Virus record (IMG/VR): IMGVR_UViG_3300027733_001676
Coordinates: 1 to 55,821 of that record
Source: a virus
DNA: 55,821 bases
Reading direction: 5' to 3' (one strand)
Below, piece after piece: positions 3,446 through 50,993 of the stretch. The position numbers and the translations under genes are program-made. Position 1 is the first letter of the stretch. Each line of letters opens with the position of its first letter. The notes below the pieces were generated by a model. That model did not search any database, was not told the origin of the DNA, and was given only the letters and a program-made list of their open reading frames with translations.

Positions 3446-4117
3446 ATGACAAATAAAGAATTAAGAGCCAAATACGGAGACTTTACAAAACACAATTACT
3501 ACACTTACCCAGATCATTTCTTTAGCCCAAAGGATGATTTTACCCTAAACATTCCTGTTTGGAGTAGTTACTTCACCAGATTTCTTGATCAAGAGAATCT
3601 ACTTTTCCTAGAAATTGGTACTGGTCATGGTAGATCTTCAGTGTGGATGTTGGAAAATGTTTTAACTCAACCAAACTCAAGAATCATTACTGTTGATATA
3701 GAAGATGTACGTAAGTACAAAAAAGGAGACTTATCATTTGACTTTGGCGATTCTTTATCGTTAACATTAACTCAGAATCTTCAACCTTATATTGATAAAA
3801 ATAAGTGTGAGTTTTATGTCACTGACTCCAAAGAGTTTTTACGTAAATTGTATGGTGGCACCTTGGGATCTAAGTTTCTTGGTAGCGATCCTAAGAACGT
3901 ATTTGACTTCATCTACCTTGATGGATGTCACGAACCAGATTATGTTATGCATGAAGCCGCAATTAGTTTTGAATTGTTAAAGAAAGGCGGATTTATTCTA
4001 TTCGATGATTATGGTTGGGGTAAATGCAGATATGGTATCGAAGCATTCTTGGAATGTTATAAGGGTAAGTACAATTTATTAATCAAGGAATGGCAAGTAT
4101 TGATTGAAAAAATATGA
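3446..4117 (+). CDS. Class I SAM-dependent methyltransferase (Methyltransf_24-like)
   Basis: This is a 223-aa Rossmann methyltransferase. Motif I FLEIGTGHGRSS lies near residues 52-63. An acidic residue ends strand 2 (TVDIED). A strand-4 motif FDFIYLDGCHEPDYV is followed by a GGFILFDDYGWG segment. The HEPDYV and FDDYGW signatures are typical of cephalosporin-hydroxylase/Methyltransf_24-type enzymes found in polysaccharide clusters. It is the first gene after the internal promoter, and its stop overlaps the next start (ATGA). It probably O-methylates a sugar of the glycan; the target cannot be read from sequence. Confidence 0.75.
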   Translation: MTNKELRAKYGDFTKHNYYTYPDHFFSPKDDFTLNIPVWSSYFTRFLDQENLLFLEIGTGHGRSSVWMLENVLTQPNSRIITVDIEDVRKYKKGDLSFDFGDSLSLTLTQNLQPYIDKNKCEFYVTDSKEFLRKLYGGTLGSKFLGSDPKNVFDFIYLDGCHEPDYVMHEAAISFELLKKGGFILFDDYGWGKCRYGIEAFLECYKGKYNLLIKEWQVLIEKI

Positions 4118-44902: not shown

Positions 44903-44910
44903 ATAAATAT
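44903..44910 (-). promoter_or_regulatory. ATATTTAT upstream motif
   Basis: ATATTTAT overlaps the tape measure stop codon region and ends 5 nt before the ATG at 44897 (ATATTTAT-AATAA-ATG). Possible late promoter. Confidence 0.38.
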
Positions 44911-47342
44911 CAGATTGCATTAGTTGCTTGACCAGAAACTCCAAATTTTAAAGTTCCTTCAGCCAATTCTTTACTTACCTTGACTCTATCCATGTAAACC
45001 GCAATCTTTCCTGAGGCCATCATACCAGTCAATACATCGATCTTTTGAGCTACTAAATCAATTCCTTGTCTCAACATAGCTGTTTCTTCACGTTTAGCTT
45101 CATTGGTCTTGGCTAGTGAATTAATAGCCGCAGTATCGATACTGATGTCAAGATTTGGAAGTTTAACTCCAGATAGTTCTTTGAGTGATGATACTGCTAA
45201 TGAAACACCTTCGGCAGCCGCACTCATCGCAGTTAATTGTGTGGTAATATTTGTTAATCTACCCACATCAATATTGATATTAAGATTTGGAACTTTAAAT
45301 CCGGACAATTCTTTAAGTGATTTAAGTGATTCAATTGTCAACGACAGACCCGAGGCAGCCGCACTCATCGCAGTTAATTGTGTGGTGATATTTGTTAATG
45401 TACCCAATGGAAACAATCGTAAACTAACATTTAGAACACCCAACGCGTATCCCATAGCACCAACCCCAAGTGCAGCCACAACCAATCCGGGCCCGACAAA
45501 TGCTAACTTAACCAAGTTTGTAGTAACAGATCCTAATAATTCTGGTAGTTTATCCAAAACCTTCATTAATGTATCAGCTAAAATCGATGCCAATCCCAAA
45601 AACAACGTTGATATTGCTGCAATTGCCGGAGCAGCTGCACCAATTCCTTGACCAATTAATTTTAAAGCATATCCCAAACCAATTAAAGCGAGTGTAATTA
45701 CACCAATCGCAAGAATAGCCATTGGTGGTATAACTAAAAATTGTACAGATCTTCCAAAGTTTCTCAGTCCCTTGCCAATTCCTTCCAATCCTTTACCAAT
45801 ACCTTCACCCACTTTCTGAGCAGCATTTCCCATAGCATCTGCTAAAAAGTCCGCTACAAGTTTAATACCCTTCTTGAATGCAAAAAATGCAATTGTTAAT
45901 CCAGCCAATCCGGCAATTACTATTCCAGCAGGTCCACCAAAATCCGCAATGGTTGCCAACAATTTGAAAAAGCTAATTTGTACAGTTCTAACCAAATCCA
46001 TCAGTGGTTTCATAGCCTTACCCAAAGCCAACATAGCTTGTTCTTTTTGTGCATCTAGTATTTTGCTTCTTTCCTTCGCAACCTCTCCTATAGCAGCTAA
46101 TTCATTGGCTCTTTTTTCTTGTTCTACTTTGGATCCAGAAATCTTGGCTAACTCTTTTTCTAGTTTTAAACGTTCCTTAGCTAAGTCTGGATTATCTTGA
46201 TCGATTTTCTGTTGTGTTTTCTTCAACGAACCAATCTTCTGTAATTCATTAATGTCTTTACCGGTCAATTCAGATAAAGCTTTACGTTGAAAATAGTTTA
46301 ACTTATCAATATCTCCAACTCTTTCAAGTTCTTTTTGTAATGCTTTTTCACCCTCAGCAATTTTACCTTCAAAAAACAATCTACGTGATTGATTAAAATT
46401 GATGTTTTGACCCAACAATGCACTAGCTTTTAACTCAGCGCCAACCGACGATTCAAAGTTTAATAATGATTCAGCTGATTTTGCAGCTTGATCAAGACTA
46501 CTACCAATCTTTCTTAACTCAGCTGCTTGTTTGATTAACTCAATCGTGTTGCCTTTAAATATTGTACGTACACTAGAACTAGCTCCACTTACATCTTTAA
46601 TAACCTTACCCAATGGTACTCCGGCAGCTTTTGCGGCAGCATCAGCTACTCCAGCCATGTTTTGTTGAGCTTGTAAACTGGTGTTACCAATTTCTCCTAA
46701 TGTAGCAAAAAATTGAGCACTGTCTGTAGCGCTTATTCCAATCGATTGTGAAAGTTGTGCAGCTCTCATTGCAACCTGTGGCATATACTCGGCGGCCATC
46801 ACACCAAGATTGTTATTTAACTCAGCAACTGCCTCAAGTGCTTCTGTCAGATTTACAACAAGACTAGTTGACGAAGCAACAATACGTTGCATTATAACTG
46901 CTTGTTTTTCAGACTGAACTCTACTAATTCCTTGTTTTACAGCATTATCCGCCAGCAATTTGTCGTACTTATCATATGCATCTACAAGTTTTATTAACGT
47001 GTCATATGCAAGTGCCATTACCGTGGCTTGTCTTTTTGTCGCAGATAATTGTTTTTCTGCAAGTGCAAGTTCATGTTTCTTGCGTAAAATAATATGTTCA
47101 ACGTCTTTGTTTTCTACATCACGTTGTCTCTCTAAGTCAGCAAGTTCTGAGCTCAATTGACCGACTACTAAACTTTGCGCTTCCAAATTTTTCTCCACAG
47201 CCTTGAGTGGATTTATTGAATTTTTAATCTTTCTGCCAACGTCATCCCAAGTTTCAGAGTATGATTGTGTTTCAGCTCTGGCTCTTTCTAGCTGTTTAAT
47301 TAAATCCGCTACGGATTTCTCTGTTGGTGAAGATGCTGCCAT
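44910..47342 (-). CDS. Tail tape measure protein
   Basis: The 810-aa protein is largely helical. Long coiled coils lie at about 20-110 and 370-440 (ELADLERQRDVENKD, KKTQQKIDQDNPDLAKERLKLEKEL), and strongly hydrophobic segments between about 475 and 640 (GPAGIVIAGLAGLTIAFFAF, IPPMAILAIGVITLALIGLGYAL). This is the usual tape measure layout, and it follows the gp26/gp51-like pair as expected for the gene after tail-assembly chaperones. Near the C-terminus a 47-aa unit (LTNITTQLTAMSAAA to the ELSG-x-K-x-PNL block) is duplicated in tandem. T4 gp29 is the functional counterpart. Confidence 0.75.
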   Translation of the reverse strand: MAASSPTEKSVADLIKQLERARAETQSYSETWDDVGRKIKNSINPLKAVEKNLEAQSLVVGQLSSELADLERQRDVENKDVEHIILRKKHELALAEKQLSATKRQATVMALAYDTLIKLVDAYDKYDKLLADNAVKQGISRVQSEKQAVIMQRIVASSTSLVVNLTEALEAVAELNNNLGVMAAEYMPQVAMRAAQLSQSIGISATDSAQFFATLGEIGNTSLQAQQNMAGVADAAAKAAGVPLGKVIKDVSGASSSVRTIFKGNTIELIKQAAELRKIGSSLDQAAKSAESLLNFESSVGAELKASALLGQNINFNQSRRLFFEGKIAEGEKALQKELERVGDIDKLNYFQRKALSELTGKDINELQKIGSLKKTQQKIDQDNPDLAKERLKLEKELAKISGSKVEQEKRANELAAIGEVAKERSKILDAQKEQAMLALGKAMKPLMDLVRTVQISFFKLLATIADFGGPAGIVIAGLAGLTIAFFAFKKGIKLVADFLADAMGNAAQKVGEGIGKGLEGIGKGLRNFGRSVQFLVIPPMAILAIGVITLALIGLGYALKLIGQGIGAAAPAIAAISTLFLGLASILADTLMKVLDKLPELLGSVTTNLVKLAFVGPGLVVAALGVGAMGYALGVLNVSLRLFPLGTLTNITTQLTAMSAAASGLSLTIESLKSLKELSGFKVPNLNINIDVGRLTNITTQLTAMSAAAEGVSLAVSSLKELSGVKLPNLDISIDTAAINSLAKTNEAKREETAMLRQGIDLVAQKIDVLTGMMASGKIAVYMDRVKVSKELAEGTLKFGVSGQATNAI
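45160..45430 (-). repeat. 47-codon tandem duplication in the tape measure gene
   Basis: Two copies offset by exactly 141 nt, for example GCAGCC at 45214 and 45355, followed by a nearly identical 28-nt stretch. Each encodes LTNITTQLTAMSAAA, a variable serine/leucine helix, and ELSG-x-K-x-PNL. A recent in-frame duplication. Confidence 0.75.
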
Positions 47343-47367: not shown

Positions 47368-47580
47368 TTATCTAAAAGATGGTTTATCTATTTTAGACTT
47401 GGCAGATTTAGATTCGGATTGTTTATTCTCCCGTTCCTTGACATCGACGAGTTTTTTGTAATAAAAGTTGCGTAGATGAATAGGTAAAGCATACACCTCA
47501 GATGGTGTAAACCCATTACCATAATAACATAAATCAAATATTACGTGCTGTATGTAAACTCTGTGTTCAGGAGTTAGGCC
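47368..47580 (-). CDS. 51: gp51-like extension reached by frameshift from the gp26-like gene
   Basis: A 70-codon frame (first codon GGC at 47580, stop TAA at 47370-47368) in the +1 frame relative to the gp26-like gene. It reads GLTPEHRVYIQHV, IFDLCYYGNGFTPSEVY, ALPIHLRNFYYKKL and then a Lys/Glu-rich tail. The G-F-x-x-x-E-V-x-x-L-P-x-x-L-R-x-F-Y core and charged tail match what I know of T4-type gp51 and of T-domains of tail chaperones. The frame has a TGA just above the overlap and no ATG, GTG or TTG before its conserved part, so it must be entered by frameshift at the T7 run. The fusion would be about 336 aa. A homopolymer sequencing error would give the same fusion. Confidence 0.7.
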   Translation of the reverse strand, partial: GLTPEHRVYIQHVIFDLCYYGNGFTPSEVYALPIHLRNFYYKKLVDVKERENKQSESKSAKSKIDKPSFR

Positions 47581-48379
47581 AAAAAAATTGAACCGTCATT
47601 GGTACGGCTACCCTTTCTTGGTTAGAACATTCAGTACAGCAAAAGTTGAATCGGCTATCAACATCGGGAGAAAAAACCTTCGCATGTTGTCTAAAAGCGC
47701 TGCTATCTTTTGCCAACATATTATTATCAATAAAAGACTTGATCTTGACTTTATCAGTATCTCCGTTGATTGCTGTAATCATATGTTTCAACCGAGTGGT
47801 AATTTCACTTGAAGATTCCTTCTTTAACTTTGCAAATCCTTCAATATCACGTTCAATCATTTTTTCATCAGCAGCAGTCAATAACTTGAACTTGATTGTT
47901 AGTTTTGATGTTGGTAAGGTATATTCAAACTCATTTACACCCTTTGGATATGCATCAAAATCAATTTCTTTGTAGTTGATTTCTGATAAATCTACATTTT
48001 GTTTATTTGCCGCAGAACATTTTGGACATGTAATTTCTACAGGACCATATGTGTCACCATAAGCCAATCGTCTGATTGCAAAAATTAAAGCATTTTTGTC
48101 ACCCACAAGAATTTGATCCAAATCAATATCCTTATCAACAACTAATGATTCAATCAACTTTTCTACAGCAAGTCCTTTTTTAAGCAAATTTGGGCTGGTA
48201 AGAATATCTTCTTCTTTTGCCGTCATCAACTTAACTTCCAATTGGCCAGTAGACAATTTACTATTTGGCGGGTAAAAGTGTCCTCGACTTGGCAGATCAA
48301 CTATTTCTGTTGGAAACGTTGGAGCTGCAGGTTTTGGATTAACAACTGATTGTCTTGTAATAGAAATTTCGTCACTCAT
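47567..48379 (-). CDS. 26: Baseplate hub / tail-assembly protein, gp26-like, with zinc-ribbon cysteines
   Basis: The 270-aa protein has an N-terminal IVDLPSRGHFYPPNS and LMTAKEEDILTSPNLLKKG. The middle part is AIRRLAYGDTYGPVEITCPKC (C118, C121) and a late CCTEC (C248, C251), forming a potential zinc ribbon. This is the pattern of the T4 gp26 family (baseplate hub assembly). It is longer than T4 gp26 (208 aa). Its last codons before the stop are CAA TTT TTT TGG, where a shift of reading frame leads into the gp51-like extension; in T4, genes 26 and 51 are separate neighbours. The tape measure follows. The short and long products would correspond to lambda G and GT. Confidence 0.7.
   Translation of the reverse strand: MSDEISITRQSVVNPKPAAPTFPTEIVDLPSRGHFYPPNSKLSTGQLEVKLMTAKEEDILTSPNLLKKGLAVEKLIESLVVDKDIDLDQILVGDKNALIFAIRRLAYGDTYGPVEITCPKCSAANKQNVDLSEINYKEIDFDAYPKGVNEFEYTLPTSKLTIKFKLLTAADEKMIERDIEGFAKLKKESSSEITTRLKHMITAINGDTDKVKIKSFIDNNMLAKDSSAFRQHAKVFSPDVDSRFNFCCTECSNQERVAVPMTVQFFWPNS
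47581..47587 (-). promoter_or_regulatory. T7 slippery run, candidate programmed frameshift site
   Basis: Seven T residues on the - strand (CAA TTT TTT TGG in frame 0). A +1 slip of the Phe tRNA re-pairs fully on TTT and is favoured by the Trp codon TGG next in line; a -2 slip gives the same frame with one more Phe. The -1 frame hits TAA after two codons and is not useful. Confidence 0.6.
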
Positions 48380-48425: not shown

Positions 48426-49205
48426 TTATTTAATATTAACACCCTTTTGTGCATCTTGAGCTGTTTTAGTAAGTATACCAGCTCTGGTTCTGATTTTATT
48501 GATAGCATCCTTAAACTTTGATTCTGGTCCAACCAATGCATCCATAAAACTATCTTCTTCATATATCATCTTTTTGATAATAGCTTTAATCTTTTGTTTT
48601 TTTACTTCATTCATAGGTTTTAAAATTTTATGTATACTCTTAACAACTTGAGGTTTAACGCCTGGATAGTTGGTTGCGAAGTTTTGAAAATCATTGTTTT
48701 TTAAATCTTGTCTTAATGTACTAGCGCTTATACTTTGACCATTTTTATCGTCAGTTCTTCCCATATAGTTACTAGGAGAATCATCGGTCATATCAACTAC
48801 TTGTACACCTTTTGGTGCAGTTAGTCCATCTTTAGTTGCCTTGATTTTGTATCTTTCAATTGCCGCTACAAAGATTTTGCTACGTTTTGCATCTTCTGGA
48901 CTTTTTGCACTAGCACCCAAAGCAATGGTTTCTGTACTATTTCTTGGTAACCCAAATACATATCCAAATGCAGCATTCATAGGATTATCATCTTGTACAG
49001 CAACTACTTCAACTTTTGGGTTTTTGGTTAGTAAGTTCCAAATAGCTAAACTTTGTTGACGATTGATACCATCACGTTCAGTGGGACCAACCATTACAAT
49101 TACTTTCTTTACATCACCACGACTAGCAAATTTATTAGCTAATCCCAAATGTCCCACATGAGGTGGTTTAAATCCGCCGGGCAAAAGTACTGTTACTTGA
49201 TCCAT
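48426..49205 (-). CDS. Cytidylyltransferase-like nucleotidyltransferase in the tail module
   Basis: The ATG at 49205 is chosen because an intrinsic terminator lies immediately upstream; a longer frame from 49262 would cross that hairpin. The 259-aa protein has the HxGH-type nucleotide-binding motif LPGGFKPPHVGH (8-19) and the ISxSxxR-type motif ISASTLR (159-165). These define the adenylyl/cytidylyltransferase superfamily (NMN adenylyltransferase, PPAT, glycerol-3-phosphate cytidylyltransferase). The last 55 residues are a helical Lys-rich addition. It may serve NAD salvage or activate a headgroup; its place between tail tube and gp26 is unusual for an enzyme. Confidence 0.72.
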   Translation of the reverse strand: MDQVTVLLPGGFKPPHVGHLGLANKFASRGDVKKVIVMVGPTERDGINRQQSLAIWNLLTKNPKVEVVAVQDDNPMNAAFGYVFGLPRNSTETIALGASAKSPEDAKRSKIFVAAIERYKIKATKDGLTAPKGVQVVDMTDDSPSNYMGRTDDKNGQSISASTLRQDLKNNDFQNFATNYPGVKPQVVKSIHKILKPMNEVKKQKIKAIIKKMIYEEDSFMDALVGPESKFKDAINKIRTRAGILTKTAQDAQKGVNIK

Positions 49206-49209
49206 GAAT

Positions 49210-49217
49210 ATAAATAT
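49210..49217 (-). promoter_or_regulatory. ATATTTAT motif between terminator and start codon
   Basis: ATATTTAT lies between the tail-tube terminator and the ATG at 49205 (4 nt away). As transcription should stop at the hairpin, this is a good place for a new promoter. Confidence 0.45.
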
Positions 49218-49228
49218 CAATAAAACAA

Positions 49229-49256
49229 AAAACCCCACAAATAAATGTAGGGTTTT
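49229..49256 (-). terminator. Intrinsic terminator after the tail tube gene
   Basis: AAAACCC / GGGTTTT plus inner ACA/TGT with one mismatch, 6-nt loop, followed on the - strand by TTGTTTTATT. 18 nt after the tail tube stop. Confidence 0.75.
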
Positions 49257-49274
49257 AAACATATGATGTGAATA

Positions 49275-49766
49275 TTAGTATTGGAGAATGCAATAGTCTG
49301 GTTGAATAGTCATACTGATTGTTACAGCATCACCATCGTTAGACCAATCCAATTCATTGAATGTTGCTTCGGTAATGAAGGCACCCTTTAGTGTCCATTC
49401 TTCTACCTTGTCACCAACTGGACCTAGAACATTAATGGTCAAATCCTTCTTATAAAAGTCTTGATAACCATCACGACCAGTAACAGATTCGTGGTGTAGA
49501 CGAACCCATTCCATTACAGCTTGAGCACCAGAAGGAACAATTGGATCATATAGTTCTAACGTCATTGTACCCCAAGTAGTTTTACCTTTGTAGTAGGTCT
49601 TGATGTTGATGTGGTCCAACTCCTTAGAAGCTTGTGTAATTTTTGGACGATCACATTTCTTGATGACGAAAGATGGAATACCATCAACGTATAGAATAAA
49701 TCTATTTTTTACCTTTGGTTCAAATGCTGTATAAAAAATTTCTGATGGATTTAGTAGTTCTGCCAT
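49275..49766 (-). CDS. 19: Tail tube protein (gp19-like)
   Basis: The 163-aa tube subunit is of normal family length. NRFILYVDGIPSFVIKKCDRPKI near residue 21, IKTYYKGKTTWGTMTLELYDPIVPSGAQAVMEW, and a closing FNELDWSNDGDAVTISMTIQPDYCILQY follow the T4 gp19 pattern (strand, long loop, terminal strand pair). It has a canonical TATAAATA late promoter, a good AAGGAA ribosome-binding site and a dedicated terminator, which fits a very abundant virion protein. The sheath gene is not in the window. Confidence 0.85.
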   Translation of the reverse strand: MAELLNPSEIFYTAFEPKVKNRFILYVDGIPSFVIKKCDRPKITQASKELDHINIKTYYKGKTTWGTMTLELYDPIVPSGAQAVMEWVRLHHESVTGRDGYQDFYKKDLTINVLGPVGDKVEEWTLKGAFITEATFNELDWSNDGDAVTISMTIQPDYCILQY

Positions 49767-49829: not shown

Positions 49830-50993
49830 TTATATTTTATTGATCTCTTTATCGTAAATTGATTTTACATTTTGTCTTAGTTTGGAAATATATCCTGTGG
49901 ATCTTAGTAATTTGAATACCAAATTTTCCACACTATACTCACCATCGTTACTTAAACCAGCTTCTCTCATGTCATATAGACGTTTAATAACGGTCTTCAT
50001 TAAGTCTATATCACCTTGGTTTATAGCTGTATTAATCATATCCACATACTGGTTATATTTCTTCTTGATAGTTTCTTTATCAACCTGTATTCCTTGATAC
50101 TCTGGTTTTTTAACCCACACATTATTAATAATACTATATACCGCTTGACTTCTGTTAACATCGTTTATATCTTGTATATAAACCTCAACTTGATGATCTC
50201 CAATGTGAATATCATGTTCTTGATTCCACGTGTTTTTCAATCCGTCAACATATTTCTTAACTAATTCTTTGTTTGGATCTATCTTGCTAAAATCAACCAA
50301 TATATGAAGATCTATATCACTATTTGGAGTCCAGTTATATCCAGCCGTACTTCCCAAAAAATAAATATCTTCAATTGGCACATTTAATTCAACGCTTTTA
50401 TAAAATTCATTAGCCACTTTAAGCATTTTATCCAATACTGCCGGCTTTAAAACACCTGATTGCCATAATTCGGGATTTAAAACACTGTTATAAATTCTAT
50501 GTTTTTCTTTTACCCCAAGAATTTCCTTAAGTTTATTAATAGTGCTTATAGCATCCGTATGCAAAATACCAATACCACCTGCTTTATTAAACTCATCAAT
50601 CGTTACAGGTTTATCATCGATTAAGATAGTATCAGATTTAGCATAATTAGCCTTGTCCTTACGACGACGTACTAAATTTGAAACAGCTGTTATATTATTA
50701 TTTTTTAACCAAGTTAATTTACCAGCACTTGATTCCTCATCAGTTGAATGCGTCAATATTTCTATTGGTAAATCTTTTATAAAATTATATAACACTTTGC
50801 CGTCAGACATCCAATCCATGGTTGCATAAAAATCAGGGCTATTTTTCCTTACAAACTCATACAGGTTAACCGATCCATGTTCGGCTTCATAAGTTTCCAC
50901 AGGTATACCACCACTATAACGCTTAAACTGCTTCTCCCAGTCGGTAAGTACGCCATCCATATCCACATAAATCTTATACTTGCTATTAATCAT
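49830..50993 (-). CDS. Fusion of HAD phosphatase and pol-beta-type nucleotidyltransferase
   Basis: The 387-aa protein has two enzyme domains. Residues 1-160 are a HAD phosphatase like phage/bacterial 5'(3')-nucleotidases: VDMDGVLTDWE (D11, D13), ILTHSTDE, a Lys/Arg-rich loop and ILIDDKP. Residues 200-330 are a minimal nucleotidyltransferase: FLGSTAGYN with the GS at 214-215, then D226 and D228 in SDIDLHILVD (GS-x10-DxD), and a third carboxylate candidate in VEVYIQD near 263. The C-terminal 60 residues are helical. One domain could add and the other remove a nucleotide or phosphate. A promoter with repeats precedes it. Confidence 0.75.
   Translation of the reverse strand: MINSKYKIYVDMDGVLTDWEKQFKRYSGGIPVETYEAEHGSVNLYEFVRKNSPDFYATMDWMSDGKVLYNFIKDLPIEILTHSTDEESSAGKLTWLKNNNITAVSNLVRRRKDKANYAKSDTILIDDKPVTIDEFNKAGGIGILHTDAISTINKLKEILGVKEKHRIYNSVLNPELWQSGVLKPAVLDKMLKVANEFYKSVELNVPIEDIYFLGSTAGYNWTPNSDIDLHILVDFSKIDPNKELVKKYVDGLKNTWNQEHDIHIGDHQVEVYIQDINDVNRSQAVYSIINNVWVKKPEYQGIQVDKETIKKKYNQYVDMINTAINQGDIDLMKTVIKRLYDMREAGLSNDGEYSVENLVFKLLRSTGYISKLRQNVKSIYDKEINKI

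Follow-up and report, generated by a model that had tools for sequence, protein, structure and literature searches.

In lambda-type phages the tail assembly chaperone gene lies just upstream of the tape measure gene. The chaperones come in a short and a long form with a common N-terminus, and a programmed frameshift makes the two (Atkins et al. 2016, PMC5009743). The same review names T4 as the exception to this conserved frameshift, and describes a +1 shift in the chaperone gene of the archaeal myovirus HSTV-2 as very likely. The two-gene arrangement of T4 is credited to Vladimirov et al. 2022 in a passage by the PRFect authors (PMC10885494), and a passage of a 2025 paper, again citing Vladimirov et al. 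2022, treats poly-T -1 signals as known in T4-like chaperone genes (PMC12846349).

This work concerns one chaperone gene in the virus record IMGVR_UViG_3300027733_001676. The window, meaning the whole stretch of DNA analysed, covers positions 1 to 55,821 of that record and is 55,821 nt long. We are confident, from comparison of sequences, that this one gene yields short and long tail assembly chaperones by a programmed +1 ribosomal frameshift. The features that the argument needs are listed here.

49275 to 49766, minus strand: gp19-like tail tube protein of the same cluster, upstream of the chaperone gene (PF06841, phrog_4542)
47567 to 48379, minus strand: short form of the chaperone, gp26-like, 270 aa in the zero frame (PF12322, phrog_150)
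47576 to 47587, minus strand: putative +1 shift site TTT TTT TGG CCT (near-invariant columns -6 to +5 in 80 sequences)
47368 to 47580, minus strand: extension read at +1, 70 codons and a stop, predicted C-terminal domain of the long form (144 of 145 relatives, three predicted helices, purifying selection)
47368 to 48379, minus strand: predicted long form via the +1 shift, 336 aa, the apparent equivalent of T4 gp51 (gp51 profile match, prob 78.7, E 1.7e-5)
47557 to 47575, minus strand: weak 3' hairpin AACTC...GAGTT (-3.5 kcal/mol, z -0.87)
44910 to 47342, minus strand: likely tape measure protein, an 810-aa ORF directly downstream (from position and length)

One gene and two reading frames

The zero-frame protein matches the Pfam family T4_baseplate (PF12322) at 45.0 bits against a cut-off of 24.5, and phrog_150 (baseplate hub) with an E value of 2.2e-13. 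PF12322 occurs at a single place in the 55,821-base record, which may be a fragment. The zero frame ends CAA TTT TTT TGG CCT AAC TCC TGA, with CAA at 47590-47588 and the run of seven T at 47587-47581 on the minus strand. The +1 frame is closed by a stop a few codons 5' of the site. From GGC (47580) it is open to a stop at 47370-47368, a stretch of 70 codons that begins GGC CTA ACT CCT GAA and reads GLTPEHR...KPSFR. Skipping one base joins the two frames into a protein of 336 aa. No start codon (ATG, GTG or TTG) lies ahead of the conserved core of the extension in the window. The initial annotation had described this end of the gp26-like frame, the 70-codon sequence running to the stop at 47368, the lack of a start before the core and the stop just above the overlap, and all of these hold when the window is read again.

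The chaperone gene (47368-48379) stands between the gp19-like gene (49275-49766), which matches PF06841 at 30.4 bits (cut-off 28.2) and phrog_4542 at E 5.4e-31, and the long ORF at 44910-47342, taken as the tape measure gene by position and length. This 810-aa ORF has no family match in Pfam and phrog searches; annotated tape measure genes occupy the equivalent place in the phages immuto and LIS04. A cytidylyltransferase-like ORF (window 48426-49262; phrog_395, with a Pfam match just under the cut-off) lies between the tail tube and chaperone genes. The ORF at window 49830-50993 has a deoxyribonucleotidase-like N-terminus (phrog_2643) and a nucleotidyltransferase-like C-terminus (phrog_36119, with weak Pfam nucleotidyltransferase matches). 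The analogy with lambda G/GT that was drawn at the outset stands: the gene order before a likely tape measure gene, the extension in another frame and the conserved shift site are all here. Compared by arrangement and frame, the systems differ in that lambda shifts by -1 and the window would shift by +1, at UUU_U with a UGG codon.

Conservation of the frame, the extension and the site

Two scans of viral contigs establish the frame of the extension. A search with the zero-frame protein, in which the shift site was outside all search patterns, gave 80 loci of 43-54% identity, and the extension is in the +1 frame in every one (79 read directly, L057 by hand). The second scan was led by an alignment headed by phage RM378, with patterns far from the site. 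It also gave 80 loci, 15 of them on contigs already seen when compared by contig name; the extension is +1 in 64 of the 65 new ones. Taken together, the scans cover 145 distinct related contigs, and the extension is at +1 in 144 of them, far beyond chance. This agrees with the proposal that the shift would be something other than -1. The initial annotation had also suggested looking among relatives for separate genes, a direct fusion or the same run; the answer is the +1 extension just described, and a zero-frame fusion occurs in none of the contigs and cultured phage genomes compared. The sole contig of the 145 that does not fit, L251 (near 2200-2260), reads TTC TTC TGG and has its extension at +2, with what looks like an insertion of 10 bases shortly after the site.

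The same +1 relation is found in cultured phages whose genomes are complete. Flavobacterium phage immuto (TTT CTT TGG CCT) and Microcystis phage Mel-JY01 (TTT TTT TGG CCT) are the cultured phages with the TTTYTTTGGCCT site. Rhodothermus phage RM378 (TTT TTT TGG AAT), Bacillus phage SP-15 (TTT TTT CAC), Listeria phage LIS04 (TTT TTT AGT) and Streptococcus phage GXN1 (TTC TTT CGT) also have the extension at +1. SP-15 as a search query matched itself alone, and tblastn with a short approximate T4-type N-terminus query gave no phages beyond those already found.

The extension has changed by 543, 370 and 1229 substitutions at +1-frame codon positions 1, 2 and 3, as in a sequence under purifying selection in that frame. 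AlphaFold given 67 homologous extensions predicts three helices (mean pLDDT 85); its model of the 336-aa fusion from the single sequence is poor (pLDDT 36). Fold searches with the extension gave no significant match, and neither did a PDB sequence search with the fusion profile.

The site itself is conserved too. Across the 80 tabulated sequences, columns -6 to +5 form the near-invariant 12 nt TTTYTTTGGCCT, with 1.39 bits or more in each column and close to 2 in most. It is kept at the nucleotide level though most of the proteins are 43-54% identical to that of the window. Clustering at 70% identity gives 46 clusters; 38 have the exact 12-mer TTTTTTTGGCCT and the others are 1 to 3 bases off. 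GGC encodes the Gly that follows the shift in 75 of 76 sequences but makes up 14.6% of the remaining Gly codons of these extensions; TTT is the first Phe codon in 78 of 79, compared with a share of 78% in other places. Codon choice at the site is thus held more narrowly than the protein encoded in either frame would require. The perfect slippery run of seven T that was first pointed out is present in the window; the conserved unit is TTTYTTTGGCCT, not the T run. Relatives with interrupted runs (TTTCTTTGG, TTCTTTTGG and TTTCTATGG) keep the +1 frame; TTT CTT TGG and TTC TTT TGG are broken runs of this sort. TTT or CTT followed by T is found in 78 of the 80 sequences, which fits YUU-U re-pairing at +1. 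The A-site codon at the shift is UGG, UAC or UUC, and never a stop codon among the relatives examined.

The proposed shift and its alternatives

We infer the occurrence of the shift, its level, the exact tRNA that slips and the roles of the chaperones, as follows. Most ribosomes would reach the TGA, and their product would be the short, gp26-like form. Some would slip by +1 while tRNA-Phe is paired with UUU in the P site and the A site holds UGG, the tRNA re-pairing on the overlapping UUU. In the CUU variants tRNA-Leu, instead of tRNA-Phe, would slip from YUU to UUU; TTT CTA TGG and TTT TTA TGG would be better explained by slippage at the first TTT, the codon before. Decoding would then resume at GGC, and the 70-aa helical domain added in this way would complete the long form, which is gp51-like. 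If lambda gpG and gpGT are a guide, the short form may coat the tape measure protein, whose gene comes next, and the extension may serve the long form in recruiting tail tube subunits.

Escherichia coli prfB (CUU UGA C) and yeast Ty1 (CUU AGG C) are +1 sites in which a YUU codon re-pairs one base forward, and several relatives of the window have CUU UGG C. The window site differs from these in having no A-site stop codon and no Shine-Dalgarno three bases upstream, and its UGG is not rare. HSTV-2, likened here by description, has a suspected +1 shift in a myovirus tail chaperone gene; its host is archaeal.

We looked for a stimulator of the shift and found no Shine-Dalgarno-like element three bases upstream, and columns -10 to -7 are variable in the 80 sequences, with no purine block. 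A rare A-site codon was not found, UGG not being rare in the window, and no strong 3' structure was found after the window site. These negative results weigh against the shift proposed for the window. The AACTC...GAGTT hairpin is probably not a conserved element in the window's phage. We rejected a downstream hairpin as a general stimulator, as it is weak in the window and missing from many other loci, and an abundant +1-frame tRNA-Gly as the cause, as GGC is uncommon in the window (7.8 per thousand against 33 for GGT). A covarying 7-bp hairpin 4 bases after UGG is present in 13 loci only (L012, L015, L017, L019, L023, L025, L032, L044, L048, L063, L071, L073 and L077), with 94.5% of cells paired and a covariation of 0.364 against 0.195 in shuffles.

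Other explanations of the two frames have to be weighed against these data. A -2 ribosomal shift at the same site would give FFFGL rather than FFGL and an identical downstream frame. The run of seven T permits -2 re-pairing, and in L076 the second codon of TTT TTA TGG re-pairs better at -2 than at +1. However, on TTC TTT TGG (L010, L185) and on TTC TTT CGT (GXN1) a -2 shift puts tRNA-Phe on UCU, whereas a +1 shift leaves it on UUU or UUC. We favour +1 for this reason and consider a -2 shift improbable. Transcriptional slippage would alter the T count in part of the mRNA with no ribosomal shift at all, and seven identical bases in the window are the kind of run it would use. Yet the relatives with broken runs keep the frame, and conservation reaches through GGCCT, which slippage does not need, so we judge this account very improbable.

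The extension could also be a separate small gene with its own start. Short ORFs are annotated here in immuto, SP-15 and Mel-JY01, and some ATG, GTG or TTG does lie in the open stretch in 54 of 79 loci. The initial annotation had named relatives with an own start codon as a finding that would count against a frameshift, but in the remaining 25 loci, as in the window, there is none ahead of the core. Conservation begins at GL directly 3' of the site, and an own start does not account for the conservation of TTTYTTTGGCCT at the nucleotide level; we find this explanation scarcely credible. Finally, a sequencing or assembly error in a homopolymer could disguise a plain in-frame fusion, an objection also foreseen in the initial annotation. 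Such runs invite errors, and the record is metagenomic in origin. The same +1 relation in 144 of 145 contigs and in complete genomes of cultured phages refutes the objection, and its probability is negligible. The programmed +1 ribosomal frameshift is the reading we retain.

The gp26 and gp51 pair and the history of the family

The arrangement of the gene, its frame, the conservation of site and extension and the relation to gp26 and gp51 are established by sequence comparison. T4 gp26 (208 aa) and gp51 (249 aa) are paralogues, both matching phrog_150, which covers the window protein as well. The match ends at profile position 235 for gp26, 280 for gp51 and 233 for the short form of the window, so the shift sits where gp26 stops and gp51 continues. 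Compared as a profile, the 336-aa fusion matches T4-type gp51 all the way to the C-terminus (prob 78.7, E 1.7e-5). Matched directly, the extension alone and the gp51 C-terminus give a probability of 1.8, which is not significant. A bridge links the extension of the window to that of Kyanoviridae (prob 77) and the latter to the gp51 C-terminus (prob 98), probabilities that need caution because one column-shuffled control, made from a gappy alignment and set aside, gave 99.8% and 99.7%, the remaining seven shuffles giving at most 1.2%. We relate the extension to gp51 on the basis of the full-length match and this bridge. By these comparisons the unshifted 270-aa product corresponds to T4 gp26 and the predicted shifted 336-aa product to gp51. 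The idea of a hidden gp51-like gene fused to a gp26-like gene has to be replaced: gp51 is a gp26 paralogue with a C-terminal extension.

The T4-type phages (Straboviridae) have homologous short and long chaperones from two paralogous genes, whereas the window would have both products from one. That the T4 equivalents are separate was correctly stated at the outset: gp26 and gp51 are separate genes in 7 of the 8 fetched T4-type phages with gp51, gp51 alone being read in the stretch from RB49. T4 gp26 ends KEFFELL (TTC TTT; L086:3303-3929), with Phe-Phe where the relatives shift frame.

Kyanoviridae-like phages have the same gene, with a homologous extension joined at the same place, but they shift in the other direction. 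Starting from Methylophilales phage Melnitz-2, the extension is at -1, at T TTT TTN, in 78 of 78 assessable loci, and in these relatives (L098-L177, L087) the zero-frame stop is within a few codons of the site. The annotation of Melnitz-2 labels part of the extension as a separate 'baseplate hub assembly' gene. The jumbo phages Agrobacterium Atu_ph07 and Pseudomonas PA5oct have the extension at -1 at T TTT TTC in the same place. These -1 sites, and the one that an uncultured 595-kb phage apparently has as well, are in L093 (near 3780-3828), L094 (near 3760-3810) and L096 (near 3690-3771). The two-gene Straboviridae and the -1 relatives reach the same short and long pair, which supports our reading of the window products as short and long forms.

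A tree of the shared domain, with a midpoint root only and some long branches, unites gp26 and gp51 of T4-type phages in a single branch (96/89) and joins this to the -1 Kyanoviridae (100/100); across the split lie the +1 phages, as do the jumbo phages that read at -1. Since frameshifting is present on both sides of the split, this suggests that it is the older state, and that the Straboviridae swapped it for duplication.

A fused chaperone made by a shift other than -1 had been thought new for T4-type tails. The -1 sites of the Kyanoviridae-like phages, and the poly-T -1 signals in the passage cited above (PMC12846349), mean that a frameshifted chaperone of this kind is already known; the +1 variant and its site may be new. 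The novelty would seem to lie in the forward direction of the shift, in the site and in how widely it occurs. More tentatively, and with somewhat less than even confidence, we suggest that TTTYTTTGGCC may be an undescribed class of +1 signal, acting at a sense codon without a stop, a rare codon, an upstream Shine-Dalgarno or an obligatory 3' structure, and kept in a large uncultured group as well as in phages of Flavobacterium and Microcystis, RM378 having a close variant of it. On the same tentative footing, the direction would have switched between -1 and +1 within the family, and duplication would have replaced the shift in the family of T4.

In the annotation of such phages the long chaperone is missed, or its end appears as a separate hypothetical protein. 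With its conserved 12 nt, the site lends itself to the study of what drives a ribosome forward on a sense codon. It is important to realize that this gene family frameshifts on both sides of its tree, and that the relatives of T4 would be the branch that adopted two genes.
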